From positions 1-29,443 of the IMG/VR virus record IMGVR_UViG_3300036766_002278: a stretch of 29,443 nucleotides of DNA. The stretch is one strand, 5' to 3'. Position numbers and translations under genes: made by a program. Numbering within the stretch: position 1 is the stretch's first letter; every line of letters starts with the position of its first letter. The notes below the pieces were generated by a model that did no database searches, was not told the origin of the DNA, and was given only the letters and a program-made list of their open reading frames with translations. This document shows positions 1-29,443 of this stretch, one piece after another. The stretch comes from a virus.

Positions 1-1035
1 ATGACATCCTGTACCCGCCGCCTGTCATTTCTTGACCGCTATCTGACGCTTTGGATCTTTCTAGCTATGGCCGCAGGCGTTGCTATCGGCTCGGTTTTTA
101 AAGGTGCGCCTGAATTTCTGAACAGCCTGTCTGTCGGTACAACGAGCATTCCCATCGCTATTGGTCTGATCCTGATGATGTATCCGCCGCTGGCGCGGGT
201 GAAGTACGAAGAATTACCCCTGATTTTCAGGGACTGGAAAATCCTGCTGCTGTCCTTGGTGCAAAACTGGCTGATCGGTCCATTCCTGATGTTTGGCCTC
301 GCGGTTTTGTTTCTGCATGACTATCCTGAATACATGACGGGCCTGATACTGATCGGCCTTGCTCGTTGTATCGCGATGGTCATTGTCTGGAATCAGTTGG
401 CGGAAGGCGATAACCAATATGTCGCCGCACTCGTGGCGTTTAACAGCATCTTCCAGCTTTTGTTTTTCAGCGTTTATGCCTGGTTCTTCCTATCAGTGTT
501 GCCGCCGATATTTGGGCTGGACGGACAGATCGTTGATGTCAGCTTCATCACTATTGCCGAAAGTGTTTTTATCTATCTCGGCATTCCCTTCCTTGCAGGA
601 TTTCTGACACGCAAAATGCTGCTTAAGTATAAAGGTCAGGACTGGTATGAGAACCGCTTCCTGCCGAAAATAGGTCCGGTCACGCTCATCGCGCTGTTAG
701 CCACAATCGTTGCCATGTTTAGCCTCAAGGGGCATATGGTTCTGGAATTGCCTCTGGATGTGATCCGTATCGCTATCCCGCTGGGCATCTATTTTGTCAT
801 CATGTTCTTTGTCAGCTTTATCATGGGCAAAGTTATCGGCGCTGATTACGGCAAGACGACCGCCGCCGCCTTTACCGCAGCCAGCAATAACTTTGAGCTA
901 GCCATTGCCGTGGCGATTGCAGCCTTCGGGCTGGGGTCGTCTGTCGCTTTTGCTACCGTCATTGGCCCGCTGGTAGAAGTTCCCGTGCTGATTGCGATGG
1001 TGAGTGTCGCGCTCTGGTTTAAACGAAAGTTCTAA
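1..1035 (+). CDS. ACR3-family arsenite efflux permease
   Basis: This 344-residue protein is almost entirely hydrophobic, with about ten membrane segments, and matches the ACR3 (arsenical resistance-3) family of inner-membrane arsenite exporters. The N-terminus ([17 protein letters not shown]) is typical of the family. The conserved cysteine needed for As(III) transport is visible as Cys123 in [13 protein letters not shown]. The C-terminal helix [13 protein letters not shown] carries the conserved acidic residue. The length is normal, so the ATG at base 1 is plausible, although upstream sequence cannot be seen. Other ars genes (arsR, arsC) would be expected to the left. Whether it belongs to the host chromosome or is phage cargo cannot be decided here. 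The family assignment is firm. The symbol arsB or acr3 is left out because naming varies. Confidence 0.92.
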
Positions 1036-1416: not shown

Positions 1417-2754
1417 GTGGATCCACGTCCCTTTACCATTTTGTCCCTGTGCTCCGGCGTCGGGGGACTCGACCTTGGACTCCGCGTGGCGCAGCCAAAT
1501 GCTCGCACCATCTGTTTTGTCGAGATCGAAGCCTTTGCCTGTGCCATCCTGGCAGCGCGCATGGCAGAAAACGCCCTGGATCCGGCGCCTATTTGGACAA
1601 ATCTTAAAACCTTCGACGGCAAACCATGGCGTGGCGTTGTGGATTGCATCACTGCGGGCTATCCCTGCCAGCCCTTTAGTGTTGCAGGAAAACAAAGAGG
1701 AAGCGAAGACCCACGACACCTCTGGCCAGATGTGTTTCGCGTGGTTCGAGAAATCAACCCACCATTCTGCTTCTTCGAAAACGTCGGTGGACATTTACGA
1801 TTGGGATTTGAACAAGTCCACGATGACCTTCGATCAGTGGGTTACCGCGTTAAGGCAGGCTTGTTCACGGCGCAGGAAGTTGGGGCCCCCCATAAGCGAG
1901 AGCGATTATTCATCTTGGCTTACGCCGAGGGCACAGGAGAGCGGCGAGAAACAGGAAACATTCCTGAAACGCATGGGCGACCGGACAGATCGTTGTTCCA
2001 GTTCACTGGCAGCGCAAGTGACGTTATGGCCGACGGCTCGTGTCTCGTCAGCGAACGGGCCGGCACAGAGCGAGATAGCAGCGGGCAATCCCAAGAGTCG
2101 ATTGGAAGTGTCCGTGATGTACTGGCCGACACCGACGGCGCAGGATTTCAAGAAACGAGGCCCGAACTCCAGCCAGCATGGACTGGCCGAGAGCACGGTC
2201 AACTGGGCAACGCCCAACACGATGGATCATATGCCGCCACGCTCGTCGGAAGCGATGGAGAAAATGCTGGGGCCAGAGGGACAGCGGGCGGGCAGATCCC
2301 GCCCCAGCAATCTGCGCGAACAGATTGTCTGGCCAACACCGCGGGCACAGAAAACATCTTCCGAGAATCCAGAAAGCTGGAAGGCGCGAAGGCAGGCGGG
2401 ACAAGTTTCAACACCGCCACTGGCGATGGCGGCGATCATGTGGCCGACCGTGACGACCCAGGATGCCAAGAACAATGCGGGGCCGAGCCAGTTCGAGCGC
2501 AACACGAAGCCTTTGAATGTGGAAGCGACATTACACGCGGGACGTCCCTTTGGCCGCCAGGGCCGACAGGAAACTGGGACGGGATCCCAAAAAGTCTTGA
2601 ACCCGCGATTTGTCGAATGGCTGATGGGCTGGCCCATCGGGTGGACAGAATTCGTGCGTGCGGAAATGGTGTCGTGCCGCTGGCTGCCGCATATGCGTGG
2701 CGCACTCTCATATCTCATGCACGCGCAACAACAGATGGAGAATACTCAGAATGA
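1417..2754 (+). CDS. Dcm-type DNA (cytosine-5) methyltransferase
   Basis: This 445-residue protein would transfer a methyl group from S-adenosylmethionine to cytosine C5. The family motifs are in order. Motif I is LCSGVGGLDLG (about 11-21). Motif IV is AGYPCQPFSVAGKQRG with catalytic Cys84. Motif VI is FFENV (119-123), motif VIII is PHKRERLFILAYA, and motif X is ACGNGVVPLAAAYAWRTL near the C-terminus. The stretch between VIII and X (about 170-400), where target recognition lies, is built of short LADTDG/LANTAG/VADRDD-like repeats. The start chosen is GTG at 1417, with AAGGA about 8 bases upstream. Its stop overlaps the next start (ATGA). In a phage it most likely protects DNA from host restriction. 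Recognition sequence unknown. Confidence 0.88.
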   Translation: MDPRPFTILSLCSGVGGLDLGLRVAQPNARTICFVEIEAFACAILAARMAENALDPAPIWTNLKTFDGKPWRGVVDCITAGYPCQPFSVAGKQRGSEDPRHLWPDVFRVVREINPPFCFFENVGGHLRLGFEQVHDDLRSVGYRVKAGLFTAQEVGAPHKRERLFILAYAEGTGERRETGNIPETHGRPDRSLFQFTGSASDVMADGSCLVSERAGTERDSSGQSQESIGSVRDVLADTDGAGFQETRPELQPAWTGREHGQLGNAQHDGSYAATLVGSDGENAGARGTAGGQIPPQQSARTDCLANTAGTENIFRESRKLEGAKAGGTSFNTATGDGGDHVADRDDPGCQEQCGAEPVRAQHEAFECGSDITRGTSLWPPGPTGNWDGIPKSLEPAICRMADGLAHRVDRIRACGNGVVPLAAAYAWRTLISHARATTDGEYSE

Positions 2755-2767
2755 CCAATACGCTTGA
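1823..2767 (+). CDS. Alternative-frame W-P-T-P repeat protein overlapping the Dcm gene (putative)
   Basis: The +2 frame inside the Dcm gene stays open from 1391 to 2767. From about 1823 (ATG, MTFDQWVTALRQACSRR) it reads as an organised protein of 314 residues. It has six repeats of the form W-P-T-P-x-A-Q-D, each usually preceded by Leu six or seven residues before the Trp, and it ends with NPRFVEWLMGWPIGWTEF and a WLPHMRGAL tail. From memory, similar W-P-T-P and VEWLMG(F/W)PxGW proteins are annotated in many phages. No strong ribosome binding site precedes 1823, and GTG/ATG starts further upstream (for example 1730) are possible. It may be a real overlapping gene or only the regular shadow of repeats in the Dcm frame. 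Confidence 0.35.
   Translation: MTFDQWVTALRQACSRRRKLGPPISESDYSSWLTPRAQESGEKQETFLKRMGDRTDRCSSSLAAQVTLWPTARVSSANGPAQSEIAAGNPKSRLEVSVMYWPTPTAQDFKKRGPNSSQHGLAESTVNWATPNTMDHMPPRSSEAMEKMLGPEGQRAGRSRPSNLREQIVWPTPRAQKTSSENPESWKARRQAGQVSTPPLAMAAIMWPTVTTQDAKNNAGPSQFERNTKPLNVEATLHAGRPFGRQGRQETGTGSQKVLNPRFVEWLMGWPIGWTEFVRAEMVSCRWLPHMRGALSYLMHAQQQMENTQNDQYA
1916..2467 (+). repeat. Six-copy degenerate repeat readable in two frames
   Basis: Degenerate copies of a repeat close to tGGCCnACnCCnnnnGCnCAgGA begin at 1916, 2027, 2123, 2204, 2330 and 2441. In the Dcm frame they read L-A-D/N-T-x-G. In the +2 frame they read W-P-T-P-x-A-Q-D. The start-to-start distances are 111, 96, 81, 126 and 111 bases. Confidence 0.7.
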
Positions 2768-4007
2768 TTTGCATGTCGAATATCTATCCGTCGATCATTT
2801 GATCCCTTATACACATAATGCCCGCACACATTCGGATGATCAGGTGGCACAGATTGCGGGATCGATGACTGAGTTTGGATTTGTGAACCCGATCCTGATT
2901 GGTGATGATGGTGGGATTATCGCGGGTCATGGCCGTGTGATAGCGGCGCGCATGCTGGGCGTTAAGGAAGTCCCTGTCATTCGGCTTAAACATCTAAACG
3001 ATGTCCAACGCCGCGCCTTGATTATCGCCGATAATAAAATCACTGAAAATGCAGGATGGGATGAAAATCTGCTGCGGCAGGAGTTACAGACCCTTGAAGG
3101 GGAAGATTTCAATCTTGCTCTCCTGGGATTTAATGAGGATGAGCTGGACGAATTACTGGACGACGGATCGGGGGCTGAAGGCCTGACCGATGAAAATGCT
3201 GCTCCCGCAGTTCCCGAAAACCCTGTCAGTGTCTTGGGTGATGTTTGGATTTGCGGTGATCATAAAATCCTGTGTGGAGATTCTACGCTGATTGATAGCT
3301 ATCAAACCCTTTTGGGAGAAGAATTGGCGGACATGGTCTTTACCGATCCGCCCTATAATGTGAATTACGCCAACTCGGCCAAAGACAAGATGCGCGGTAA
3401 ATCCAGACCCATTCAGAATGACAATCTGGGCGAAGATTTCGGGGCGTTTTTGTATGACGTTTGCACCAACCTGATGATGGTGTGCAAAGGCGCGATGTAT
3501 ATCTGTATGTCGTCATCGGAATTGCATACGCTTCATGGTGCTTTCACCAATGCAGGTGGCAAATGGTCAACTTTTATCATCTGGGCCAAGAACACCTTCA
3601 CGCTGGGGCGTGCTGATTATCAACGCCAGTACGAACCCATCCTTTATGGTTGGAAACAGGGCCATGAACATTTCTGGTGCGGCGCGCGCGATCAGAGCGA
3701 TATCTGGTTTGTGAATAAGCCTGTGAAAAATGATTTGCATCCAACCATGAAGCCCGTTGAGCTGGTGGAACGCGCCCTGCATAATTCCAGCAAGACCAAA
3801 GATATTGTGCTGGATGCGTTTGGTGGTTCTGGCACCACTATGATTGCCTGCGAAAAAACAGGTCGTCGTGCCCGTCTAATTGAGCTTGAACCCAGATATG
3901 CCGATGTGATTGTTAAACGCTGGCAGGAATTCACAGGTAAGAAAGCCAAACTCGCAGCGACGGGGCAGAGTTTTGCAGAACTTGAATCCGAACGTATCGT
4001 GAAGTGA
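2751..4007 (+). CDS. ParB-domain DNA methyltransferase (N6-adenine or N4-cytosine)
   Basis: This 418-residue fusion begins with a ParB/Srx-like domain (about 1-110: VDHLIPYTHNARTH, GGIIAGHGRVIAARMLG, ADNKITENAGWD). A methyltransferase follows, with motif IV as DMVFTDPPYNVNY and motif I as VLDAFGGSGTTMIACEKTG near the C-terminus. Motif IV before motif I indicates the beta-type order. The DPPY tetrapeptide is the catalytic motif of amino methyltransferases; it does not tell N6-adenine from N4-cytosine. The ATG at 2751 overlaps the Dcm stop as ATGA, pointing to coupled translation, so I rejected the longer upstream extension. Together with Dcm it forms a modification pair beside the packaging genes, likely for restriction evasion. 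No restriction endonuclease is nearby. Confidence 0.9.
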   Translation: MTNTLDLHVEYLSVDHLIPYTHNARTHSDDQVAQIAGSMTEFGFVNPILIGDDGGIIAGHGRVIAARMLGVKEVPVIRLKHLNDVQRRALIIADNKITENAGWDENLLRQELQTLEGEDFNLALLGFNEDELDELLDDGSGAEGLTDENAAPAVPENPVSVLGDVWICGDHKILCGDSTLIDSYQTLLGEELADMVFTDPPYNVNYANSAKDKMRGKSRPIQNDNLGEDFGAFLYDVCTNLMMVCKGAMYICMSSSELHTLHGAFTNAGGKWSTFIIWAKNTFTLGRADYQRQYEPILYGWKQGHEHFWCGARDQSDIWFVNKPVKNDLHPTMKPVELVERALHNSSKTKDIVLDAFGGSGTTMIACEKTGRRARLIELEPRYADVIVKRWQEFTGKKAKLAATGQSFAELESERIVK

Positions 4008-4013
4008 GGATAA

Positions 4014-4559
4014 ATGGGTGTTTCCATTCGTGCTTATGCCCGCCATCGCGGCATTGCGGATAATGCGGTACGCAAAGCAATCAAGGCGGGGCGCATTACA
4101 GCAGAAGCTGATGGCTCAATTGATATTGCTAAAGCCGATGCAGCCTGGGATGCCAACACCGATCATACTAAACGCCATATACCTTCTGAAATCCGTGAGG
4201 TGGATCCGGCGGTGGCCATGGAATCCGTACGTCAAACCTTAGCCGAGAATGGCCGCCCGCCACAGGGCATGAACAGCTTTACCCAAGCCCGCACCGCGCA
4301 TGAAATTGCCAAGGCCCATCTGGCGCGACTGCGGCTACAGGAAAAGAAAGGGCAATTGATCAATAAAGACATGGTCAAGGCGCAGGTTTTTCGGCTGGGA
4401 CGAGAATTCAGGGATGCATGGGTGAACTGGCCAGCCCGTGTGTCGTCACAAATGGCCGCAGAACTGCAGGTGGATGAACATGGCTTACACATGATTTTGG
4501 AGCGCTATGTGCGGGAGCATCTGAATGAAATTGGAGATGCCAAACTCGACACAGCATGA
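4014..4559 (+). CDS. Terminase small subunit-like protein
   Basis: This 181-residue protein sits directly before the large terminase, where lambda-like phages encode the DNA-recognition subunit. The first 35 residues (SIRAYARHRGIADNAVRKAIKAGRI) look like a winged or MerR-like helix-turn-helix similar to lambda Nu1. The middle (about 85-125) is a charged helical stretch (AHEIAKAHLARLRLQEKKGQ). The C-terminus resembles the region that contacts the large subunit. The ATG at 4014 follows a GAGGA-type site that overlaps the end of the methyltransferase gene. Its last 35 bases overlap the terminase start. The role is inferred from position, HTH and size. Confidence 0.75.
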   Translation: MGVSIRAYARHRGIADNAVRKAIKAGRITAEADGSIDIAKADAAWDANTDHTKRHIPSEIREVDPAVAMESVRQTLAENGRPPQGMNSFTQARTAHEIAKAHLARLRLQEKKGQLINKDMVKAQVFRLGREFRDAWVNWPARVSSQMAAELQVDEHGLHMILERYVREHLNEIGDAKLDTA

Positions 4560-6546
4560 TGGAGCCTATGACAGTTTAGAAATTGCAACTTTATGGCAGC
4601 GGGCGGTTACGCCCGACCCATTTCTGCTGGTCTCGGAATGGGCGGATCAATACCGCTTGCTGTCAGCCAAATCGGCAGCCGAACCTGGACGGTGGCGCAC
4701 CGCGCGTACGCCGTATTTGAAAGATATCATGGATCAGTTGGCACCTGCCTCGGCGGTGCAGCGGATTGTGTTCATGAAAGGATCGCAGGTTGGCGGAACG
4801 GAATGCGGCAATAACTGGATTGGCTATGTGATTCACATCGCCCCAGGGCCGATGATGGCGGTGGCACCCACCGTGGAACTGGCCAAGCGTCATTCTAAGC
4901 AGCGGATTGATCCGCTGCTTCAGGATGTGCCGGAACTCAGGGAGCGTGTGAAGCCCGCCCGTTCACGGGACAGCGGCAATACGATCTTGAGCAAAGATTT
5001 TCTGGGGGGCCTGCTGATCATGACGGGCGCGAATTCGGCGGTGGGTTTGCGTTCAATGCCTGCCCGTTACCTGTTTATGGATGAAATTGATGCATACCCT
5101 GGCGATGTCGATGGTGAAGGCGATCCGATTTTGCTGGCCGAACGGCGATCTGCCACTTTTAAACGCCGTAGGAAAGTGTTCATGGTCAGCACACCGACCG
5201 TTAAAGGATTATCGCGCATTCAGCGTGAGTTTGAGAAAAGCGATCAGCGCTTTTTTCATGTACCGTGTCCTGAATGTGAACATTTTCAGCCCTTGCGCTT
5301 TGTGCAGTTACGTTGGCCAGAAAACGAGCCACAACAGGCAAAATACGCATGCGAAGAATGCGGGCACTTGATTGAGGAGCATTATAAAACCGCGATGCTG
5401 GCCAAAGGTGAATGGCGAGCAACTGATGAAAGTCAGGACGGCACAATTGGATATCACCTATCCTCACTTTATAGCCCTATCGGCTGGTTTTCGTGGGGAG
5501 ATGCGGCGGCGATGTTTGAGGATGCCAAGCGCAACCCCGATTTGATGAAGGGGTTCGTGAACACGGTACTTGGGGAGCCTTATGAGGAGTCCTCAGAAGC
5601 ACCCGAATGGCAACGCCTCTATGAACGGCGGGATGTTTACGCCCAAGGTATTGTGCCGCTAGGTGGTCTGTTCCTCACCGCTGGTGTGGACGTGCAGAAA
5701 GATCGCCTTGAATGTGAGGTGGTCGCCTGGGGTCGCAACAAGGAAAGCTGGTCGGTTGATTATATCGTTCTGGACGGTGATACCGCACGACCTGATGTGT
5801 GGCGACGGCTGGATACGGAAGTTCTTCAGCGTGACTGGCCGCACAGCACGGGCCATACCATGCCGATCCGCGTCATGGCGGTGGATAGTGGTTATGCCAC
5901 ACAGGATGTTTACGGGTTTGTTCGCAACCATCCGCAGGCCGTATGGGGTGGGAATGGCGCGCGCGCCAGTCAGCCCCGCACGGTGGTGGCGGTTAAAGGG
6001 CAAGACCGCGACACGGCTCTGATTTTAAGCGTCGGTAAGGCGGATACGGGCGGCAAACGCCGTGGCCTCAGGGTCTGGAATGTCTCTGGCCCCGTGGCCA
6101 AGATGGAACTGTACCGATGGCTAAAACTGGAATGGCCAACCGATAAAGATATTGAAGCTGGTGTTGTCTTCCCGCCTGGCAGTTGTCACTTCCCGCAATA
6201 TGGCGAGGAGTATTTCAAACAGCTGACAGCTGAACGGCGGGTTATTCGGATTCACAAAGGTTTCCCCCATGCGACATGGGAGAAAGACCCAAGTCGTAAC
6301 AACGAAGCACTGGATTGCCGTGTCTATGCCCGTGCCGCCGCCACGATTTACGGGATCGACCGGATGAGTGAATTCAAATGGCGCGGGTTGGAGCAGACGC
6401 TGGGGGTGGAGATTGAGATTCCAACGCGCGGGATAGAAAGCCCTGTCACGGAGGAAACCAAGTCTTCGCCGCCAAAACCACAAAGCAAAAAACGGATGAA
6501 TATCACACCGCGCAAAATTGTTCGGGCGGATGATCCGTACTTATGA
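4525..6546 (+). CDS. Terminase large subunit, GpA family
   Basis: This 673-residue protein is the ATP-driven packaging motor and nuclease that cuts and loads the phage genome. The N-terminal ATPase has a Walker A-like loop (MKGSQVGGTE, about 84-93) and Walker B YLFMDEIDAY (about 182-191). Two CxxC pairs (CPEC 246-249 and CEEC 274-277) suggest a zinc site. The C-terminal nuclease domain shows TAGVDVQKDRLE (Asp387), MAVDSGYAT (Asp452) and NEALDCRVYARAA, as in lambda gpA relatives. ATG 4525 has a GGGAG site 7 bases upstream and overlaps the small-subunit gene. A start at 4537 is possible. The length is normal for GpA. Confidence 0.93.
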   Translation: MKLEMPNSTQHDGAYDSLEIATLWQRAVTPDPFLLVSEWADQYRLLSAKSAAEPGRWRTARTPYLKDIMDQLAPASAVQRIVFMKGSQVGGTECGNNWIGYVIHIAPGPMMAVAPTVELAKRHSKQRIDPLLQDVPELRERVKPARSRDSGNTILSKDFLGGLLIMTGANSAVGLRSMPARYLFMDEIDAYPGDVDGEGDPILLAERRSATFKRRRKVFMVSTPTVKGLSRIQREFEKSDQRFFHVPCPECEHFQPLRFVQLRWPENEPQQAKYACEECGHLIEEHYKTAMLAKGEWRATDESQDGTIGYHLSSLYSPIGWFSWGDAAAMFEDAKRNPDLMKGFVNTVLGEPYEESSEAPEWQRLYERRDVYAQGIVPLGGLFLTAGVDVQKDRLECEVVAWGRNKESWSVDYIVLDGDTARPDVWRRLDTEVLQRDWPHSTGHTMPIRVMAVDSGYATQDVYGFVRNHPQAVWGGNGARASQPRTVVAVKGQDRDTALILSVGKADTGGKRRGLRVWNVSGPVAKMELYRWLKLEWPTDKDIEAGVVFPPGSCHFPQYGEEYFKQLTAERRVIRIHKGFPHATWEKDPSRNNEALDCRVYARAAATIYGIDRMSEFKWRGLEQTLGVEIEIPTRGIESPVTEETKSSPPKPQSKKRMNITPRKIVRADDPYL

Positions 6547-6795: not shown

Positions 6796-8370
6796 ATGGT
6801 GCAATTATTGGATTCATCAGGACAGCCGATGAAAGCGTCGACGCGCTTTCGGGTAAGTGATACGGCGCATCGGGCCGCCTCAGTTAAAGCTCGGGAGCTG
6901 GCCAGTTGGATGCCGCTGCTTGGGTCAGCCGATAGCGATCTATTATCAGAGCTGCCAACGCTGGTCTCACGTTCACGGGATTTAACGCGCAATCACGGTG
7001 TGGCGGCGGGTGCTATTCAGACGCTGGTCGATAATGTCATTGGTACGGGATTGCGGCTGGCCGCCATTCCTGATTATCGCTCTTTGGGGCAATCCAAAGA
7101 ATGGGCGGATGATTGGGCACGGGTTGTTGAAAGCGAATGGCGTGCTTGGGCGGAAAGCACGGCGTGCGATGCCGCGAATGCGCTGACGTTTGCGGGCATG
7201 ACGGCTTTGGTGTTTCGCTCTAGCTTGATTAATGGTGAATCCTTGGCTTTGCCCCTTTGGTTAGATGGGCGGCTTGATCAGCGCGGAGCCTCTTATGCCA
7301 CCACTATTCAACTGGTGGAATCGGACAGGTTATCAAACCCTGCAGGTGTGCAGGATAGTAAAAATTTGCGCTCAGGCATTGAAATTGATGCCTACGGTGC
7401 GGCGGTAGCGTACCACATCCGCAAAACGCATCCAGGCGATAGCTATATCGGCTACGGAATGGAGAGTGATGATTGGCTGCGTGTGCCCGTGCGCACGGCT
7501 TTTGGCCGCATGCGTGTGCTGCATATTCATGACAAAGAGCGCACGGGGCAGCATCGCGGCAAACCACTACTGACTTCCATTATGTCGATGTTCAAGATGC
7601 TGGATCATTATGAACGCTCGGAATTACAGGCGGCGGTGGTCAATGCCATGATTGCGGCCTTTATCGAAACGCCGCTCGACGGCGAAGCGATTGGCGAGAT
7701 GTTCGGTGGGTCGGTTGAGGATTATCTGGCCGCGCGTAATGAATGGGATATTCGCCTGCAGGGTGGATCCATCATTCCTGTATTTCCAGGGGATAAGGTT
7801 TCCCCCTTTACGCCCAGCCGTCCGAACAGTGGTTACGGCCAGTTTGTGGAGAATGTCCTACGCCATATCGGTGCAGGTCTGAATATCCCGTTTGAATTGT
7901 TGATGAAGGATTTTTCCAAAACCAACTACTCAAGCGCGCGGGCAGCATTGCTGGAGGCATGGCGTTATTTCAACGCGCGGCGGCAATGGATGGCAACCTA
8001 TTGGGCCAAGCCCATTTATGAGCTGTGGCTGGAAGAAGCGATCAATAAAGGCATCATTGATGCACCAGATTTCTATGAACGTCGCGCCGCCTGGACACGC
8101 TGCAAATGGATTGGCCCTGGACGTGGCTGGGTGGATCCCGTCAAAGAGGCAAAGGCTGCACAATTGCGAATGCAAATTGGACTTTCAACTCTTGAGGATG
8201 AATGTGCCAGCCAAGGTCTGGATTGGGAAGAAGTGTTGGAACAGCTGGCGCGTGAAAAAGCCAAAATTACCGAGTTGGGTCTGACCATTAACGACACCAA
8301 CAGCATTATGAACACGAGTGAAGACAATCAGGAGGAAAATGATGAGAATTTGGAACCGCCTCGCCGGTGA
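6796..8370 (+). CDS. Phage portal protein, lambda gpB family
   Basis: This 524-residue protein, close to the 533 residues of lambda gpB, should form the dodecameric ring at the capsid vertex through which DNA enters. Family signatures include SRDLTRNHGVAAGAIQTLVDNVIGTGLRL near residue 60, LVESDRLSNPAG, RMRVLHIHDKERTGQHRGKP, and SKTNYSSARAALLEAWRYFNARRQW in the C-terminal half. The ATG at 6796 follows AAGGCAGG. The gene's last 29 bases overlap the protease gene, as is common for the lambda B-C pair. The acidic tail after about residue 500 is probably disordered. Confidence 0.93.
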   Translation: MVQLLDSSGQPMKASTRFRVSDTAHRAASVKARELASWMPLLGSADSDLLSELPTLVSRSRDLTRNHGVAAGAIQTLVDNVIGTGLRLAAIPDYRSLGQSKEWADDWARVVESEWRAWAESTACDAANALTFAGMTALVFRSSLINGESLALPLWLDGRLDQRGASYATTIQLVESDRLSNPAGVQDSKNLRSGIEIDAYGAAVAYHIRKTHPGDSYIGYGMESDDWLRVPVRTAFGRMRVLHIHDKERTGQHRGKPLLTSIMSMFKMLDHYERSELQAAVVNAMIAAFIETPLDGEAIGEMFGGSVEDYLAARNEWDIRLQGGSIIPVFPGDKVSPFTPSRPNSGYGQFVENVLRHIGAGLNIPFELLMKDFSKTNYSSARAALLEAWRYFNARRQWMATYWAKPIYELWLEEAINKGIIDAPDFYERRAAWTRCKWIGPGRGWVDPVKEAKAAQLRMQIGLSTLEDECASQGLDWEEVLEQLAREKAKITELGLTINDTNSIMNTSEDNQEENDENLEPPRR

Positions 8371-9544
8371 GCCGTGGGCCATCACGGAAACAGCATTACA
8401 AACCATTTTAGAAATTGCTGCCCGCGAAAATGAAAGCCCGCAGGCGGTGGCCGCCAAGCTCGGTCGGGATTTACAAAATACCTATACGGCCACCGAACGA
8501 GATGGGGTTGCGATTATCCCTGTGACAGGGCCGCTTTTCCGCTATGCCAATCTCTTCACTGCTGTCAGCGGTGCATCGAGCTATGAACTAATCGCCCGTG
8601 ATTTTACCGCTGCGCTGGAAAACCCGCAGATCAAAGGAATCATTCTCGATATCGATTCCCCAGGCGGGGAAGTCAACGGCGTGTCGGAACTCTCCAATAT
8701 GGTCTATGCCGCACGGGGTAAAAAGCCAGTGGTGGCCTATGCCTCTGGCGATGCGGCATCGGGCGCTTACTGGATTGCCTCAGCCGCTGATGAAATTGTG
8801 GTCTCGGATACTTCGGCGCTGGGATCGATTGGCGTCGTTGGCATGTATCGTGGCAAATCAGGAAAACAAGGCGAAGATGTCGAGATTGTTTCTTCGCAAA
8901 GTCCTCATAAACGGCTTGACCCATCAAGTGACGAAGGGCGGGCGCGACTGCAGATGCGCATTGATAGCATGGCTGATGTGTTCATTGAAAGCATTGCACG
9001 TAATCGCAAGGTCAGTATGGATATTGTTCAAACGCATTATGGCGGCGGCGATGTGCTCATCGGCGCAAAAGCCGTACAAGCTGGTCTAGCTGACAGGGTC
9101 GGCAGTCTAGAACAGCTAATACAAGAACTCTCTGGCCTTTCTAAAAGCCCTCCACTGGAGGGCTTTTTTGTAACCAAAACCCCCACCGTAAAACAGGAGA
9201 AAAAACCAATGGATCTTGAAACCCTTACCAAAGAACATCCAGTTCTCGTGACGCAGATCAAGCAGGATGGTGTACGTGCTGAACGTAAGCGCCTAGACGA
9301 TATTCTAAGTTGTCCAGAAGCAAAAGACCGTCAGAAGCTGGCCATAGAAATTGCGCTGCACACGGATATCAGTGCTGTGGAAGCCCAGCATTTATTAGCC
9401 TGCGCCACGCCAGAAAAAGTGACTGCAACCAGTTCGTTTGATCGGGTCATGGCGAGTATCCCAAATCCCGCCATCACGCCAGCAAGCGATGATGCAGCAA
9501 ACGATATCGATGCGGTGGCAAGCCGCATCGCTGCTGCCGTTTAA
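8342..9544 (+). CDS. S49 (SppA-like) head maturation protease with C-terminal scaffold domain
   Basis: This 400-residue protein corresponds to lambda gpC, the prohead protease, fused to a scaffold-like C-terminus. The S49 core has LDIDSPGGEVNG (about 102-113), AYASGDAASGAYWIASAADEI with probable nucleophile Ser140, and SALGSIGVVG. Lys190 in SPHKRLDP is a candidate catalytic lysine. The C-terminal 111 residues (from Met290) form a separate acidic helical part that can be made alone from 9209. ATG 8342 was chosen because AGGAGG lies 6 bases upstream; ATG 8339 would be too close. A terminator-like hairpin lies inside the gene at 9143-9169, exactly between the two parts. Confidence 0.9.
   Translation: MRIWNRLAGEPWAITETALQTILEIAARENESPQAVAAKLGRDLQNTYTATERDGVAIIPVTGPLFRYANLFTAVSGASSYELIARDFTAALENPQIKGIILDIDSPGGEVNGVSELSNMVYAARGKKPVVAYASGDAASGAYWIASAADEIVVSDTSALGSIGVVGMYRGKSGKQGEDVEIVSSQSPHKRLDPSSDEGRARLQMRIDSMADVFIESIARNRKVSMDIVQTHYGGGDVLIGAKAVQAGLADRVGSLEQLIQELSGLSKSPPLEGFFVTKTPTVKQEKKPMDLETLTKEHPVLVTQIKQDGVRAERKRLDDILSCPEAKDRQKLAIEIALHTDISAVEAQHLLACATPEKVTATSSFDRVMASIPNPAITPASDDAANDIDAVASRIAAAV
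9143..9169 (+). terminator. Intrinsic-terminator-like hairpin inside the protease/scaffold gene
   Basis: AAAAGCCCTCC (9143-9153) and GGAGGGCTTTT (9157-9167) form a perfect 11-bp stem with a 3-base loop, continuing into a run of six T (9164-9169). The form is that of a strong rho-independent terminator, yet it lies in the middle of an open reading frame (codons reading SPPLEGFF). It could act as an attenuator, an RNA-stability element or a slippage signal. Confidence 0.7.
9209..9544 (+). CDS. Nested in-frame scaffold protein (Nu3-like)
   Basis: An in-frame ATG at 9209 inside the protease gene is preceded by AGGAG 9 bases upstream (9195-9199), a good internal initiation site. It would give a free 111-residue product (MDLETLTKEHPVLVTQIK...) sharing the protease C-terminus. 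This copies the lambda C/Nu3 arrangement, in which the scaffold starts inside the protease gene. The product is rich in charged and helix-forming residues (RAERKRLDDILSCPEAKDRQ), as expected for scaffolds. The function is inferred from architecture. It may also exist only as part of the full-length protein. Confidence 0.65.
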   Translation: MDLETLTKEHPVLVTQIKQDGVRAERKRLDDILSCPEAKDRQKLAIEIALHTDISAVEAQHLLACATPEKVTATSSFDRVMASIPNPAITPASDDAANDIDAVASRIAAAV

Positions 9545-14446: not shown

Positions 14447-16989
14447 CCGTGCGCAACCTTGCCATTCGCTTAAGCGTGACCGAGGGCGGTAAGGTCAAGG
14501 CCGAGCTGCGCGATATTGGCGAAAGCGGTGAAAAATCACTCAAGAAAATTGAGCTGGCGGGCAAACCTGCCTCGCGCTCACTGCTCGCAATCAATGCCGC
14601 CGCCAATGATGTCAAAGGCTCCGTCTCTGGCTTAACCAATAATCTGGGGCCGCTTGGCTCGGCTTTATCCGCGATTGGCCCCACGGGTCTGGCTGTCGGG
14701 GCAGCTTTAGCCGTTATCACGCTAGGATTAAAAGCCGCTCTGCAAAATGCGGCAGAGGCCGAGCAGTCCTTTAACCGGCTTTCGGCGGTGCTAAAAGCCA
14801 CGGGCAATTCATCGGGGCTATCGGGCAAACAAATTGCTGGTTTTGCCGATGAGATTGAAGCATCCACTTTGGTTACCGCCGAACAGGTACAAAATGCGGC
14901 GGGCGTGCTGGCAACCTTTCGCTCAGTCGCAGGCGATACCTTCACCCGCACCTTAACGCTGGCGCAGGATATGTCTGCCGTGTTTGGGCAGGATTTAAGC
15001 TCCTCTGTCACCCAGCTTGGTAAAGCCCTTGAAAACCCGACTGAGGGGTTATCGGCGCTGCGCCGTGTTGGGATCAGCTTTACCCAAACCCAGCGGGACT
15101 TGATTGACGGGTTTGTTGAAACAGGACAGCAAGCCGAAGCCCAGCGGGTTATTCTCGATGCGCTGGAACAGCAAGTGGGCGGCGCTGGGGCGGCAGAGGC
15201 CACAGGGCTGATTGGCGCCACCAATCGTTTATCTGATGCCTGGGGTAATCTGCTCGAAGATATCGGCCAGACGGGAATTGTCGCAGGTACAGCCCAAGGG
15301 GCTTTGAACGGCCTGTCATCGGTGCTGGAAGGCATGCGCAATCTTCTCAAAGAAGATCCTGTGGGTAAGCAGCTGGTGGATGCACGACTTGCATTGCAGG
15401 AACAAGAAGAGCGGCTTACGCGCCTGCAAAACTTCAAAACCATTCCAGGCGGCGGGGTCAATCTTGGCCGTATGATTGAACGGCAAGAAGGCCGCGTGGG
15501 GGAGATGCGCCGTGAGGTTGAAAAACTCATCGGCCAAGCGCGCGCGGAAGCGCAGGCCTTTGAAGCCGAGCAGAAAAAACTCCAAGCCGCGCAAGAGCAA
15601 GTGGCACGCGACCGCCGCGCCGAACTTTTAAGTGGTGAGCGTAAAAAACTCGATCAGGCGGTTGATAAACTCGCAACCGAACCCGCTGAGCGTATTGCCA
15701 AGGTCAATAAAGAGCTGGAGGTCACCAAATCCCGCCTGAATGCTTTGCGTGAAAATGACGGCAGCAATGCGGGTGCCCTCGATACTGCCTTTAAACAGGC
15801 CGAAAACATTGCCCGTCGCCAAATTGAAGCGATTGAAAAACCCGCCCGCGATGCCGCCACCCGTGTCATGGAAGCCAATAGTAAAGTGGTCGATGATCTG
15901 CAGCGGCAAATGCTGGGCGTGGGGAATAAACGCCAGGCCTTTATGGATCAGGCGGTGGGGCGTTTATCCAAAGATCCGAGTGAAGCGCAGCGTACGCAGA
16001 CCCGTAAATTGGCGGCGCAGATTTTTGATAGTCAGGCTTATTCCGAAGCGCAAAAAGTGGTTGAGGATCTGAACAATCAACTCGGTCGCCTTACGGATAA
16101 ACGGGCAGCGTTTATTCAAGATGCTGTTGGCCGCTTATCGGATAATTCAACTTCGGCGCAGCGCGCTGAAGTTGAAAAACTGGCAGCTGCACTCTATGAT
16201 CAAGGCGAAGCTCAGCAGAAGCTGAATAAACTTCAACAAGACGGCGAACAGGTCACCAACGCCACACGTTCGGCAACAGAATCTTATAACGCCGAGCTGG
16301 AGCGGTTGAAGAGCCTTCTCGATGCAGGTGCCATCAGCCAGGAAACCTATAACCGCGCCGTTGCCAATGCTGAAAAACAGCAGCTTGATGCACGTAAAGA
16401 TGCTGAAGCCGGTGCCTTGCGGGCCTTCCGCAACTACCGTGAACAAGCAGAGGATGCAGCGTCGGCGGTTGAGCGTGCTTTTACGGACGGAATGAAGGCG
16501 ACCGAGGACGCGATTGTCGATTTTGTCACCTCCGGTGGTAAAAGTCTCAAGAGCTTAGGTGACATGGCAAATTCTATTGTCGCCGACATCACGCGCATGG
16601 CCGTGCAGAAATCCATCACGGGGCCGCTCTTTAATATGATTGGCGGCAGTATTGGCGGTGGCGGTTTTCTGGATAGTATTCTGGGCAGTATTTTTCATGA
16701 GGGTGGTGAAGTTGGCGGACCCGCGCCGCAGCGCCGTGTGCCTGCATATGTCTATACAAACGCGCCGCGCTATCACTCAGGCGGTGTGGCTGGTCTTAAG
16801 CCTGGGGAGATCCCTGCAATTTTAGAGCGCGGTGAAGTGGTGCTGCCCAAAGACGGCACGCGTATGGGATCAAACGTCAATGTCGTCATGAATATTACCA
16901 CGCCGGATGCCAGTAGTTTCCGCATGAGCCAGTCGCAAATATCTGCTGAAGCTGCGCGCGGCATTCAACGCGCCAAGAGGAACTTATAA
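14443..16989 (+). CDS. Tail tape measure protein
   Basis: At 848 residues this is the tail length ruler, equivalent to lambda gpH (853). The N-terminal third has the family part with a hydrophobic segment (IGPTGLAVGAALAVITLGLKAAL, about 75-97) and AAGVLATFRSVAGDTF. The middle (about 300-650) is long coiled coil rich in Glu, Lys, Gln and Ala. The C-terminus has DAIVDFVTSGGKSLKSLGDMANSIV, a Gly-rich stretch, and YHSGGVAGLKPGEIPAILERGEVVLP, a signature of the lambda-type tape measure C-terminus. Two 48-residue repeats lie at 15886-16200. The start overlaps the T frame (ATGA). Confidence 0.93.
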   Translation: MTVRNLAIRLSVTEGGKVKAELRDIGESGEKSLKKIELAGKPASRSLLAINAAANDVKGSVSGLTNNLGPLGSALSAIGPTGLAVGAALAVITLGLKAALQNAAEAEQSFNRLSAVLKATGNSSGLSGKQIAGFADEIEASTLVTAEQVQNAAGVLATFRSVAGDTFTRTLTLAQDMSAVFGQDLSSSVTQLGKALENPTEGLSALRRVGISFTQTQRDLIDGFVETGQQAEAQRVILDALEQQVGGAGAAEATGLIGATNRLSDAWGNLLEDIGQTGIVAGTAQGALNGLSSVLEGMRNLLKEDPVGKQLVDARLALQEQEERLTRLQNFKTIPGGGVNLGRMIERQEGRVGEMRREVEKLIGQARAEAQAFEAEQKKLQAAQEQVARDRRAELLSGERKKLDQAVDKLATEPAERIAKVNKELEVTKSRLNALRENDGSNAGALDTAFKQAENIARRQIEAIEKPARDAATRVMEANSKVVDDLQRQMLGVGNKRQAFMDQAVGRLSKDPSEAQRTQTRKLAAQIFDSQAYSEAQKVVEDLNNQLGRLTDKRAAFIQDAVGRLSDNSTSAQRAEVEKLAAALYDQGEAQQKLNKLQQDGEQVTNATRSATESYNAELERLKSLLDAGAISQETYNRAVANAEKQQLDARKDAEAGALRAFRNYREQAEDAASAVERAFTDGMKATEDAIVDFVTSGGKSLKSLGDMANSIVADITRMAVQKSITGPLFNMIGGSIGGGGFLDSILGSIFHEGGEVGGPAPQRRVPAYVYTNAPRYHSGGVAGLKPGEIPAILERGEVVLPKDGTRMGSNVNVVMNITTPDASSFRMSQSQISAEAARGIQRAKRNL
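15886..16200 (+). repeat. Two 48-residue repeats in the tape measure gene
   Basis: Copies lie at 15886-16029 and 16057-16200, each 144 bases, offset by 171. Both read V-V-x-D-L, then KR-x-AF, xxAVGRLS, and AQR...KLAA, and end in an aromatic residue plus Asp. They are similar at protein level and diverged at DNA level, so the duplication is old. Confidence 0.85.
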
Positions 16990-18872: not shown

Positions 18873-21800
18873 TGGCTGTTTTGGCTTTAGGGGTGGTGGG
18901 ATCGGCTCTTGGGTCTGCCATTGGGATTGGTGCATCCGCTGGATGGCTGGGCGGCGTCATGCTCGGCAATCTCTTGTTCGGTGGCGGCAAAGGCCAGAAT
19001 ATCGAAGGCCCACGCATAGATGATCTCTCGGTACAGACCTCGACTTACGGTGCGCCGATCCCGCTAGTCTATGGCACGATGCGGATTTCAGGAAATGTCA
19101 TCTGGTCAACGCCGCTTAAAGAAACCCGCAGCGTCAAGCGTAGCAGCGGGGGTAAAGGCGGTGGTAAGAAATCATCGCAAACCACCTATAGCTATTCCGT
19201 GTCCTTCGCGGTGGGATTATGCGTTGGCCCCGTGGCAACCGTGCGCCGGATCTGGGCGGATACCAAGGTGATTTATGATGCGACCGCCGGCAACACGCAG
19301 GCCACAGAAAAATATCCTGGCATTATCCGCATTCATCGCGGTGAGGAAACACAGGAGCCTGACAGCACGCTTGAAATGCATCTTGGCGCTGGCAACGTGC
19401 CTGCCTTTCGGGGGCTTTGTTATCTCGTCTTTACCGATTTACAGCTGAAAGACTTTGCCAACCGTATCCCCAATATCAGCGCAGAGGTGGTGGCGAACGG
19501 CGATATGGTGAGTGATGCGCTGATTTTAACGCCCGCCACCACCATGACCAAGGAAGGTGGTGTACTGGATCAAGCGCGGGGCACGCTGATCGGGACAGGT
19601 TCTGCCCATGTTTACAAATATGATGTGGTCAATAACCGCCTTGTTCTGCAGCGCGGGTTGGCAGATCCAAACTGGTCTGGTGCCTTTCCTGGTGCGAATG
19701 ATGTTTACGGCGATGTCTGCGGGATTGATAGCCAAGGGTATTATTATCATGCCGCCGATGCCTATGCGGTCAGTATGCGCCTTATTAAACGCCATCCTGA
19801 AACGCTGGGAATTGTGGCCCTCACCAGCCCCAAAGTGCCGTTCAGCGTGAACGGGATTGTGCGGCGGGATAAGATATTCTGCTATGGCTCGCGCCGTGTG
19901 TATAACACCAGCCTGCAGGAGATTGCTGATCTTTCGGATTATTTTCCCTCCGTCACTTTTGGCGGACCACTATGCGATGATCCGAATGGCAATTACTGGC
20001 AGGTGACAGGGAATTTTGTCCGCCGCTACACGCCAAGTGCCTTCGGTGCGGGCAGTGTGACGGAATGGAGCAGTACACTCTGGACGGGCGGTCAGCTACC
20101 GCGCACTGTCTTCTGGGATGATTTTACGGGGCATATTTACTTCACGCTGGGCCTGGACAAGCGCGTCATTAAATGGCACCCCGAAAACGGCTATGTGGCG
20201 CATGTGGATGGTGTCGCCATTCCAGCAGGCTTTGGGTATCAGTCCGATTCCAACCTGCCGATTAATGGCAAATTCTGGTCGGCGGCCAGCTTTGAAGCAA
20301 CGCTCGTTGATCTGGTTTCGATGCGGCTGGAGCGGTCAATCGACCTCATCCCGTTTCGCCCCAGCAGCACCACGCATTTTGGCGGCGCGTATGAGAAATT
20401 CACCCATTCCGCCGTGATCATGACCAATGACGGGCAAATTAAATACCCGCTCGAACGCTACGGCAATGATGCGGTGGTTTTATCAGGCGTGCTCTCGGAT
20501 ATCTGTCAAAAAGCGGGTATGGCACCCACCAGCCTGATCACCAGTGCGGTCAGCCAGTCTTTGCGCGGCTATGTGGTGAGCCGCCGTATGGCCGCGCGGG
20601 AAGCGCTGGAGCCACTGCTTGGTACCTATTTTATTGATGCGGTCGAAACGGATGGGATTTTGCGTTTCGTCCCGCGCGGGGGTGCGGCAGTTGCCAGCAT
20701 TGCGTATGATGATCTAGGGGCAAGCGATAACGGGCAAGAAGAACCGCTGCGTTTATCTGAAAGCCGTGTGCAGGATGTGGAACTACCGCAGCGACTTGAT
20801 ATCGTGCATGTCGATCCAACCCGTGATCACCAGCCGAACACCCAGCATGCCTCGCGTATCAATGATGCGATCATCACACGTGAAAAGCAGACACGGGAAA
20901 TCTCGATCTCGCTCACGCCGGATGAAGCCAAACAAATCGCCGAGCGCACGCTTTATAACGCCTGGGTGGAGCGCAACCAGTATAAGTTCTCGCTGCCGCC
21001 CAAATGGCTGCGGCTGGATCCGACCGATATCATCACGCTGAACACGGAAGACGCCACGCTCAAAGTCCGCCTGAACAGGGTGGATTTTGGCGGGAATAAT
21101 GTTCTCTCCTGTGAAGCGGTGGCGGAGGATGAGATTGTCTATCTCTCAACCGCCGCTGGTGCCGGTGGTGGCCTGCCCGCTATTCCGATTGCCATCACTG
21201 GTCCAACGCCGCTGTTCCTCATGGATCTGCCGATGCTGCGCTATGAGGATGATACGCTGGGGGTTTATTACGCCTTTGGTTTTCGGGATAACACAGTATC
21301 GGGCGCCTCAATGTACCGCTCACCCGATGAGCTGGCATGGGAAGTTCTCGGCACGGGTAATGACGGCCCGACCTTTGGCTGGGCGGCGACGGTGCTGCCC
21401 AATGTTGTCAGCCCCTATGTTTGGGATGAAGCGGGTAAAGTGCAGATTGCGCTCACGCAAGGCACGCTGGATAGTAAAACCGCGCTGGAGGTATTGAACT
21501 GGACGAATATTGCGCTTCTGGGTGATGAGGTTATTCAATGGCGCAATGCCGATGTTCTTGCGAGCGGCCTTTATGAGTTATCAGGATTGTTGCGCGGGCG
21601 GCGCGGCACCGAATGGGCCACCGGATCCCATGTGATTGGCGAGCGGTTTATCTTGCTCTCCGATGATGGCGTCTATCGTGCGCCGCTGCCAATGACCGAG
21701 ATTAATCGCACGACCTATTACAAAGGCATCGCCGATGGCGGGAATTGGGATGATGCGCCGTCCAATATTCTAGTCTTCAAAGGCAATAGTCTGCGCTGCT

Positions 21801-26119: not shown

Positions 26120-29100
26120 TTATTCTAGTAGCTCTGACCACTTTGCTTTTCCCTGCCCATATCTGTGAATATGTGCGCGGGAATCCCCCTCCTGAAAATC
26201 GGCATAATAAAGACTGATTTCTGTGTCTTCTAAGGTACGTTTTAGATAGATAAGACGTTCATAGTCTGGGTTGCATATCCAAACTGTCCCCCCATCTGCT
26301 GAATTAATCTCAACACGATAGGGAATGCCCACTGCAGGTTTAAAATCATCGAACAAAGTTTTATCTAACTGCCGAGGAATAGAAGTAGATTTCCATTTTT
26401 GATTTCTTTCTCCTCGCAACATATCCTCTCGGAAATTTTTCCACAGATCTGAGGTTTTTATGGTCGGCCAGTCTTCTCCATTTGTTAAAGCGGTTATTTG
26501 ATCTGATTCAAGCCACTCTCGCATATCAGACATATCAAGAAATGTTGGATTTGTATCCATGACAGATTTTATTGCAGCTATTCTGGAAGATAGACCCGCC
26601 CTTATTAATAATGCCATCATGTATGATGAAACCCCCGTTTCTAGCGCAGCAGCGGCTCCGCCAGTGATGATTTCAGAACTCCAGCCCAGAGATGTTCTAC
26701 GTTGGCGCAGGGCTTCCAATGCCCAAACCAACCGATAGGTGAAAACGTCTTCAATAAATTCCATGTTATTAGAGCCGATAGTCGATACATCTGCGCCAGA
26801 AACCCACATGAGCAAAAGATTTTTCCAATCTAAAGGCAGGGCTTTGTTTGGTTTAAAGGGACGTATCAAAAGTAACCTTTCAGCAATAGCGGTAAGGGAA
26901 ATTACAAGCTGTCCAACATTCCCCTGGAGTACCGCCAGATCCGCCGTGTCTAGATGCGTAGAAAGCTCATCGGCCATCGCATCAATTGAAAGACCCGTTT
27001 TTAATCCAACACCCATTGCGAAGTGGCTTTTTCGTGACTCTGGTGTGGTGTTATTCCAAATCAGTTTCGCGCGAGCCTGCAAAATGAACCGATGGTTGTT
27101 TTCGGTCTGCGCTCCTGCTTCGGCGATGCTTCTTACCCAGAGCGAGCCGTTGAGGGCCTCATCCAGCAAGCGAGGGAGATCCTCTGCATCGGCATCAAGG
27201 GTATTTATTAGCCCAATGACCATAGCGTCTAATTTTTCAATTAGGTTTTCAAACGGCTCTCTGGCATCATTCTGTGGTTCCGTGATAGTCCATGAATCAC
27301 GGGAGTTAACGAGGTAATCGAAAGCATCGGCGCGCGAAAAAGTACCTGTTGCCGCCATACGATTAAGTATTTCATTGATGACCTGATATAGACCGCTTTG
27401 AATATGGCGCGCTCGGGCAGAGGCTAAGAGATTCTCCCAGTTTTGTACACTGTTGTACTTAAGTTCAAAAATAGGGTGAATGATGGTTCCTTCAACGTCG
27501 ACAAAAGCACGGCCAGCTCTTCCAGCTACATTGGCAAACTCCTCTCCTTTAAGAGGTTCGCCATTGCGAACTAAATAAGGCACAAGGAGAACTGCCGCAT
27601 TTATATTTAGCCCCTGAGACAATGTCGGAGAGGCCGCAATGACTTTTATAGTTCCGCTTGCAAGAAGGAGTTCTAACTCTCTTAAAAAGGGATTTGGTAA
27701 TTGCCCATGATGAATCGCAACACCAGTTTTTAAAGCCTGAACGGCGGGGTGATCTACCCCGAGCCATTCCTCTCCAACGGTCAAGGCGCGTTGGATATCG
27801 TCAGGATTATCAAGCAAAGAATGCAAGTATCCCTCTTTAACCAATTCAATCGCTCGTTTCCCATACCCAGAAACCCAGCTTGCTGTGCTGATAAAAATAA
27901 GGGTCTTTTTTCCTTGCTCTGCAAACTTCCATGCAGCAAGGAGAGTTAAATCCCGCACATCCTTTGGTGGGGGGTTTTTTCGCCCTGTTTTAGCGGGTTT
28001 TTCTACAAAATTTGGAAAAAACGCCCCCTCTTTATATTCCAGTCTCGCACGGTCATTACTCCAGATCAGCGTCCCGTAGCGTTGCCTTGTCGGCCTCCAA
28101 GGGGACTTAATGGGAGTGCCATCCACATCGCTTCTCATCCATGCCGTAAGGTCATTAAGCTCTTTACCATCTGGAAGAATAGCCGACAGACAGACTAATC
28201 TACGGTTATCTGCGTCTGCTCTACGAAGCAGTTTCTGCACGAGAATTTCATACCGAATCTCGCGCTCGGATGTTCCGATCATATGCCCTTCATCAAGGAC
28301 GATAAGTCCAATATCGTCAATAAGGGACGCATCATTACGCAGCGCAAAATCTAGTTTTTCTGGGGTCGTGATGACGATGTTTTTTGAACGTAATGCGTCC
28401 ACATCGTTTGATGAACCGCTTGCACCATACAGCGATGAAACACTATATCCCAACGGCGCGAAGGTTCTGCGGAAAGAGCGTTCTGTTTGGGCAGATAAGG
28501 CGCGCAAAGGAGTAACAATCAATACGCGCTTTTCTGATGAAAGGGTTATAAGGGCGGCAATTTCTGCTATTCTGGTCTTTCCTGCGCTGGTGGGGAGCGC
28601 AACTACCAGATCGTCGCCTAGATTTCCGGCGCGTTTGGCCGCTTCCAACTGCGAAGGCCAAAGTTCAACTTCTGCTGTTTTTCGTGCATAGAGAGACAAA
28701 ATAAATTTCTCCCTCATTTCAGAATAAGCTGTAGCCGTGACTTCTTGCGTCGTGGGCAGGGTCATATGAAGGGAATGTACCCAAAGGTCATCTATAAGAT
28801 TTAGAGATAAGCGAATAACCCACCATAGGGGGACGATGCCCGTGTCTCTGGCGAGTGCCAATGTATCTTTTAGTATCCCTCTAGCCCCATTAAGTGGCTC
28901 AAGCTTTCCTGTTTGTAACGCGAAATCAAAATAGAGGAGCGCGCGGCAAACAGATGAATTCAGGATAATGCTATAAGCATCATCTTCGCTATATTCAATG
29001 TCTTTCGCCAGAAGATTCTTTTTGATTTCATCATCTCTATGGCTTTTATCCCTTAGCCATGCGCGGGATAGATCATGCAGCCTTCTAAAGTCACGAAGAA

Positions 29101-29443
29101 TAAGGCATGAAAGGGCTTGTTCTGCAATATTCAAGTTTTGGCCATGTTGGGAATGGCTAAGTAGAGAATATGCTACCGCAGAATAATTAGCCAAATGGTA
29201 AGCGCTAGCCGCCATTATACGATAGAAGTCAGTTTCATGGTCATTGGGCGCATTGTTCTTAACGAGTGCCTCAAATGCCTTTCCTGCAAATTCGAATCCT
29301 CTTTTTGCGATAGAAAGGTTACCTTGCTTTTCTTTCAGTGAAAGAGCAGATAGCAAAAGACTAAAGGCATAATCCGCTAAATCATCCTGAATCGTATCGC
29401 CGAATTTTGGGGCGTATAAGGGTAACTCCCCTTCACGCCGCAT
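26120..29443 (-). CDS. Ski2-like SF2 helicase, possible defence gene (start at or beyond the edge)
   Basis: This protein of at least 1107 residues runs opposite to the phage genes. Residues 1-240 are helical and TPR-like. The helicase core follows, with LWPSQ (Q motif, Gln265), ALPTSAGKT (motif I, 282-290), TPLRALSAQ (Ia), DEGH (II, 384-387), SAI (III), TLIFIST (IV), SPTLSQGLNI (V) and NVAGRAGRA (VI, 638-646). The C-terminal 440 residues are of unknown role. The core matches Ski2/Hel308-type helicases such as those in defence systems (for example Hachiman HamB), but a partner nuclease would lie outside the window. The AUG at the last base position may not be the true start. Base use looks more A+T-rich than the phage genes, suggesting separate origin. 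Confidence 0.8.
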   Translation of the reverse strand: MRREGELPLYAPKFGDTIQDDLADYAFSLLLSALSLKEKQGNLSIAKRGFEFAGKAFEALVKNNAPNDHETDFYRIMAASAYHLANYSAVAYSLLSHSQHGQNLNIAEQALSCLILRDFRRLHDLSRAWLRDKSHRDDEIKKNLLAKDIEYSEDDAYSIILNSSVCRALLYFDFALQTGKLEPLNGARGILKDTLALARDTGIVPLWWVIRLSLNLIDDLWVHSLHMTLPTTQEVTATAYSEMREKFILSLYARKTAEVELWPSQLEAAKRAGNLGDDLVVALPTSAGKTRIAEIAALITLSSEKRVLIVTPLRALSAQTERSFRRTFAPLGYSVSSLYGASGSSNDVDALRSKNIVITTPEKLDFALRNDASLIDDIGLIVLDEGHMIGTSEREIRYEILVQKLLRRADADNRRLVCLSAILPDGKELNDLTAWMRSDVDGTPIKSPWRPTRQRYGTLIWSNDRARLEYKEGAFFPNFVEKPAKTGRKNPPPKDVRDLTLLAAWKFAEQGKKTLIFISTASWVSGYGKRAIELVKEGYLHSLLDNPDDIQRALTVGEEWLGVDHPAVQALKTGVAIHHGQLPNPFLRELELLLASGTIKVIAASPTLSQGLNINAAVLLVPYLVRNGEPLKGEEFANVAGRAGRAFVDVEGTIIHPIFELKYNSVQNWENLLASARARHIQSGLYQVINEILNRMAATGTFSRADAFDYLVNSRDSWTITEPQNDAREPFENLIEKLDAMVIGLINTLDADAEDLPRLLDEALNGSLWVRSIAEAGAQTENNHRFILQARAKLIWNNTTPESRKSHFAMGVGLKTGLSIDAMADELSTHLDTADLAVLQGNVGQLVISLTAIAERLLLIRPFKPNKALPLDWKNLLLMWVSGADVSTIGSNNMEFIEDVFTYRLVWALEALRQRRTSLGWSSEIITGGAAAALETGVSSYMMALLIRAGLSSRIAAIKSVMDTNPTFLDMSDMREWLESDQITALTNGEDWPTIKTSDLWKNFREDMLRGERNQKWKSTSIPRQLDKTLFDDFKPAVGIPYRVEINSADGGTVWICNPDYERLIYLKRTLEDTEISLYYADFQEGDSRAHIHRYGQGKAKWSELLE

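Follow-up and report, generated by a model that had tools for sequence, protein, structure and literature searches.

A conserved terminator-like hairpin upstream of the predicted internal scaffold start in a lambda-like protease/scaffold gene

The nested protease/scaffold gene and its hairpin

The window, that is, the whole stretch of 29,443 bases analysed here, is a virus record with a lambda-like structural operon in the order terminase, portal, S49 protease/scaffold, decoration protein D and major capsid protein E. The flanks of the window (1–1035, 1417–4007 and 26120–29443) carry a bile-acid-symporter-family transporter, a C5-cytosine methylase and a ParB-like N6/N4 methylase, and also a large DEAD-box helicase on the minus strand; these genes flanking the structural operon are likely host or cargo/defence genes. 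The protease/scaffold locus has the following features.

8342–9544, plus strand: lambda C-type gene, an in-frame fusion of an N-terminal S49 head maturation protease and a C-terminal scaffold domain (ORF, Pfam and phrog matches)
9143–9167, plus strand: hairpin with a perfect 11-bp stem, a 3-nt loop and the GC-rich core GCCCTCC/GGAGGGC (sequence, fold, covariation)
9164–9169, plus strand: U tract (T6) abutting the GC core and forming with the hairpin the shape of an intrinsic terminator, d = 35.4 (terminator score, codon bias)
9195–9211, plus strand: internal ribosome-binding site AGGAG (9195–9199) and predicted scaffold start ATG (9209–9211) (sequence)
9209–9544, plus strand: nested Nu3-like scaffold frame of 111 amino acids (phrog_8399, phrog_17040)

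The protease domain is recognized as Pfam PF01343 (E 7e-26, residues 126–265 of the ORF), and the ORF matches phrog_53, head maturation protease, with E 6e-97. Its C-terminus yields scaffold-type family matches, and the nested frame matches phrog_8399, head scaffolding protein, with E 7e-7 and phrog_17040 with E 1e-13. The gene is of the lambda C/Nu3 type: its reading frame runs on from the S49 domain into a scaffold domain that has an SD and an ATG of its own. Almost every relative has an SD and an ATG 3' of the hairpin, usually at a distance of 25–60 nt, and from this conservation we predict internal initiation at ATG 9209. No internal promoter directly 3' of the hairpin was found among the promoter-like matches in the window, and the stretch 8900–9544 has no matches among plasmid sequences.

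The sequence-only reading of this DNA had pointed to a perfect 11-bp hairpin with a 3-base loop and six T within the S49 gene. It is indeed present at 9143–9169 and stands, as had been said, 40 nt ahead of the internal scaffold ATG with its AGGAG. The 5' arm is AAAAGCCCTCC (9143–9153), the loop is ACT (9154–9156), and the 3' arm is GGAGGGCTTTT (9157–9167). Folded alone, the hairpin RNA has an energy of −17.2 kcal/mol (z = −4.7), and none of 200 shuffled sequences was equally stable. The stem is retained when folded in a 181-nt context, where the hairpin pairs with itself; the scaffold SD lies outside it and is not masked by it.

Terminators were scored by a d'Aubenton-Carafa-type score, d > 0 defining the terminator class. 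Only two plus-strand sites in the 29.4-kb window have d > 0. The hairpin (core dG −12.4 kcal/mol, nT 4.5) scores the higher; the second site, 1140–1162, lies 3' of the first, host-like gene. Within the phage part of the window, no other strong terminator-class signal occurs on the plus strand, and the hairpin has the composition of an intrinsic terminator, a stable GC-rich hairpin with a U tract at once after it. A simple terminator scanner overlooked it, probably because the scanner prolongs the stem into the Ts. The Rfam search of the element gave sub-threshold matches, none of them above the gathering score.

Selection on the hairpin in relatives

We collected 22 close relatives from IMG/VR and afterwards added 80 loci from viruses and 52 from genomes. 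At the corresponding place, most near relatives have a hairpin followed by a T-rich tail, while the residues encoded by the linker vary: SPPLEGFF in the window, APQTEGLF in L011, NPALQRGFLL in L037, NPAKLRGSSF in L016 and NPANRPGSSF in L013.

Chance and protein constraint as the source of the hairpin are ruled out by synonymous recoding, the position profile and covariation. When the linker of the window was redrawn with synonymous codons from the same ORF, none of 1000 versions reached the real score, and four exceeded d = 0; in the relatives with d above 0 the real score was reached in 0–18 of 1000 trials. A sense site with d > 0 falls within the 100-nt linker tile in 50 of 103 distinct loci, as against at most 10 in every other tile. 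In the same 103 loci, there are 120 sense and 34 antisense terminator-class sites, and half of the latter are mirror images of the linker hairpin. The phenylalanine codons in the T tract of the relatives are TTT in 71 cases and TTC in none, compared to 317:155 in the rest of the same ORFs; since the sequences are related, the p-value of this bias (7e-12) is merely indicative. Judging by this codon choice, the U tract is itself under selection.

Covariation was assessed in a loop-anchored alignment of 41 distinct hairpins, which replaced an unstructured alignment that had mixed two pairing registers. In this alignment, 99.4% of cells are paired, a percentage inflated because the rows were chosen for having a hairpin, so that the tree is the safer measure. 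Double-sided changes are seen in four of the eight stem pairs (51 cells), and the covariation score is 0.439, compared to at most 0.078 in slid-partner controls. Covariation, the sense–antisense bias and the codon bias of the T tract all agree on conservation of an RNA structure in the sense direction.

In the tree of the protease domain (106 rows; a quick tree, some branches of which are weakly supported), every one of the 36 rows in the clade that includes the window (support 95) has the hairpin. In six of these rows, which belong to the L028 and L030 groups, a long-loop form was assigned by eye; L028 and L030 exemplify longer-loop or weaker hairpins below the reach of the score. The hairpin is present in 64 of the 77 rows of a larger clade of alpha- and gammaproteobacterial phages. 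The tree requires four changes of hairpin presence or absence and at least seven changes of the stem type, both sides of the stem changing together. The hairpin is absent in the groups of gut Alphaproteobacteria, Pseudovibrio, Bartonella and Marinobacter, which retain the internal scaffold start; since many distinct relatives do without the hairpin in this way, it is not essential to the design of the gene. Among prophages, L102 (Microbulbifer) and L105 (Aliikangiella) have the hairpin, and L101 (Pseudovibrio) and L098 (Marinobacterium) lack it.

Conservation in related phages had been proposed as a check, and the comparison bears it out: the stem is kept beyond the needs of the protein and rebuilt by compensatory changes over long divergence, while the amino acids of the linker change almost completely. 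Such upkeep is direct evidence that an in-gene hairpin of the terminator class has a function, and because the stem is rebuilt with new letters whenever the sequence drifts, the hairpin very probably has one. Comparative sequence evidence thus supports a terminator-like RNA element under its own selection, directly upstream of the internal scaffold start.

Slippage at the T6 run, or +1/−1 frameshifting, might yield a short protease, as had also been suggested, and in the window the loss of one T does lead to an immediate stop (GGC TTT TTG TAA). This part of the suggestion holds in the window and fails in the nearest relatives, L002 and L083: in L002, L003 and L083 (about 86% identical), the frame entered after deletion of a T stays open for 67 codons. 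The T run starts at codon phase 0 in the window group, 1 in the L011 group and 2 in the L037 and L016 groups; in one clade, the L013 and L016 groups, it is broken, TTCTTCTTTT. A shared slip device is contradicted by the varying phase, the broken run and the non-conserved shifted stops. Hence a programmed frameshift or slippage site, for which neither the slip sequence nor the shifted stop is conserved in phase, was rejected, and we consider this reading highly improbable.

Three gut alphaproteobacterial relatives (L117, positions 5770–6060; L120; L127) have an extra stretch exactly at the protease/scaffold linker. Its length is about 270 nt in L117, and it is in frame in L117 and L120. The stretch has no Pfam matches in L117 and no Rfam matches in L117 and L127.

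Hairpins elsewhere and candidate roles

The junction of C and Nu3 in lambda has no terminator-like hairpin, and terminator-class sites at the protease/scaffold junction were found in none of ten published relatives examined; Pseudomonas phage ZRG1 (L140) has a weak linker hairpin with d = −11.2. The late operon of lambda, transcribed by antiterminated polymerase, has six sense and no antisense terminator-class sites within 1–20 kb (4487–4502, 6101–6114, 7164–7179, 15466–15479, 18920–18935 and 19613–19632 in L146). Five of the six end 18–30 nt before a start codon, those of E, FI, J, lom and orf-401, the last taken at its annotated position 19650. The earlier statement that lambda lacks such a device is thus right for the C/Nu3 junction, but such hairpins do occur at other places in the late operon. 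Judging by lambda, hairpins resembling terminators occur more widely at the cistron boundaries of lambda-like late operons; the hairpin of the window is one whose cistron boundary falls inside an ORF.

Other hairpins were observed in the operons of the relatives. In 19 of about 72 relatives, the tail terminator gene U has a conserved terminator-like hairpin of its own, GGCCTTAGCGGGCC or GGCCCTGCAGGGCC followed by T7, at about codons 6–13, within the first approximately 45 nt (L007, 6367–6380; L011, 7033–7045; L046; L085, 9033–9046; L101, 8979–8992; and others); it is absent from the window. The protein constraint there is strong (EQALxGLFLCL), yet synonymous recoding seldom recreates this hairpin. 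In some relatives, strong and nearly identical hairpins GCCGCCTTCGGGCGGC followed by T6 occur in the portal–protease gap or before portal, roughly 20–40 nt before the start codon (L007, 2277–2292; L010, 2955–2970; L086, 4957–4972; L093, 4955–4970; L006, 1187–1202; L085, 3189–3204). Finally, Micavibrio-type relatives have an in-gene hairpin GCCCCCGCTTCGGGGGC with a TTTT tail close to the beginning of the tail protein gene that directly follows U (L085, 9523–9539; L089, 9586–9603; L093, 10054–10070).

One candidate role of the linker hairpin, in our estimate a fairly unlikely one, is segmentation of the message. The hairpin would block 3' exonucleases and the U-rich tract would be an RNase E-type cleavage site, so that, by analogy with intercistronic hairpins of other operons, the late mRNA would be cut into protease and scaffold–capsid segments of unequal stability. 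The location at a cistron boundary, mainly on the sense strand, the conservation of the stem by shape and the similar lambda hairpins before E, FI, J, lom and orf-401 are consistent with this role. However, it leaves unexplained the strong selection on T abutting the GC stem, and protection by the hairpin would lengthen the life of the protease segment, for which demand is lowest.

The position of the hairpin, nearly always just 5' of the scaffold SD and ATG, and its stability in the sequence context could also fit an insulator of translation, slowing the ribosomes that arrive from the protease or freeing the scaffold RBS from upstream pairing, and thus raising internal initiation. Such a role would not require the U tract, which is nevertheless conserved, the relatives without the hairpin keep their internal start, and in the fold the hairpin pairs on itself and leaves the SD unmasked; we rate it as improbable.

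The sequence-only reading had proposed partial termination, setting the ratio of protease to scaffold and capsid. A terminator-class element does stand at the right boundary, but lambda has no hairpin at the same junction, and the direction of the effect makes the proposal doubtful. The mRNA for scaffold, decoration and capsid proteins would be lowered relative to that for protease, the opposite of what assembly needs; in particular, scaffold, needed in excess, would drop. As the transcripts in greatest demand would be cut and the protease messages would lack a stop codon, such non-stop mRNAs being subject to trans-translation (PMC4824070), we hold this role to be quite unlikely.

The role that we propose, with confidence somewhat short of even, is that of a sense-strand intrinsic (Rho-independent) terminator that would gate the capsid genes and be silenced by trailing ribosomes. 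A trailing ribosome largely or partly suppresses the intrinsic terminators of translated ORFs; they become active again on uncoupling, and those late in an ORF may be suppressed incompletely (PMC4824070). Given this suppression, a terminator about 800 nt into the protease should be mostly silent if the protease is translated and active if it is not, and silencing of this kind would make the element a gate for scaffold, D and E. An in-frame terminator module would thus mark the cistron boundary between protease and scaffold, here inside one ORF. A polymerase closely followed by a ribosome translating the protease would read through, presumably because the ribosome prevents folding of the hairpin, whereas a polymerase without a close ribosome would stop or pause at it, as might happen in stray read-through in a lysogen or in starved or uncoupled late transcription. 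The scaffold, decoration and major capsid genes would then be transcribed mainly from messages whose protease is under translation, and the hairpin would act on the capsid genes as an attenuator or polarity switch gated by translation, rather than as a maker of extra protease.

The loops differ in sequence and length among the relatives. This would be expected if RNA polymerase recognised a shape, and less so if a specific RNA-binding protein were involved, and it makes a sequence-specific protein operator at the hairpin unlikely. Neither of the Q-type antiterminator families PF06530 and PF03589 was found in 12 genomes carrying relatives.

Terminator-like sites within genes are usually dismissed as chance or suppressed noise, and among open-licence papers we found none that describes a phage protease/scaffold gene with a conserved intrinsic terminator in it. 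As a tentative generalization, in this clade of lambda-like phages the linker terminator may permit transcription of the scaffold and capsid genes only with a protease-translating ribosome behind the polymerase, and similar intragenic elements, for instance at codons 6–11 in the tail terminator gene of relatives, may be wider checkpoints of late operons. The hairpin is a clean, small and testable element for control of capsid gene expression by transcription–translation coupling.

Comparison with known systems

The window shares with lambda C/Nu3 the S49 protease with an in-frame internal scaffold start and the order portal, protease/scaffold, D, E. The difference is in the position of the hairpins, which in lambda lie close to the beginning of C, in the D–E gap and at other boundaries; the hairpin of the window would add to the nested gene a layer of control absent from lambda at that junction.

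As in intrinsic terminators generally, there is a GC-rich stem, a short loop, an immediate U tract, an upstream A tract and a sense-strand bias. Unlike them, the hairpin of the window sits midway in a translated ORF, about 800 nt downstream of its start; no stop codon precedes it, and an RBS comes about 25 nt later.

In translation-controlled attenuators of the pyrBI and trp type, folding of the terminator likewise depends on the distance between ribosome and polymerase, as would be the case here. However, the window has no leader peptide and no known signal, and a full structural gene stands in place of the leader.

The central terminator of filamentous phages and Tphi of T7 are terminators in structural operons, placed between genes. 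The element of the window is similarly situated within a structural operon, but it is also protein-coding and has been rewritten under both constraints.
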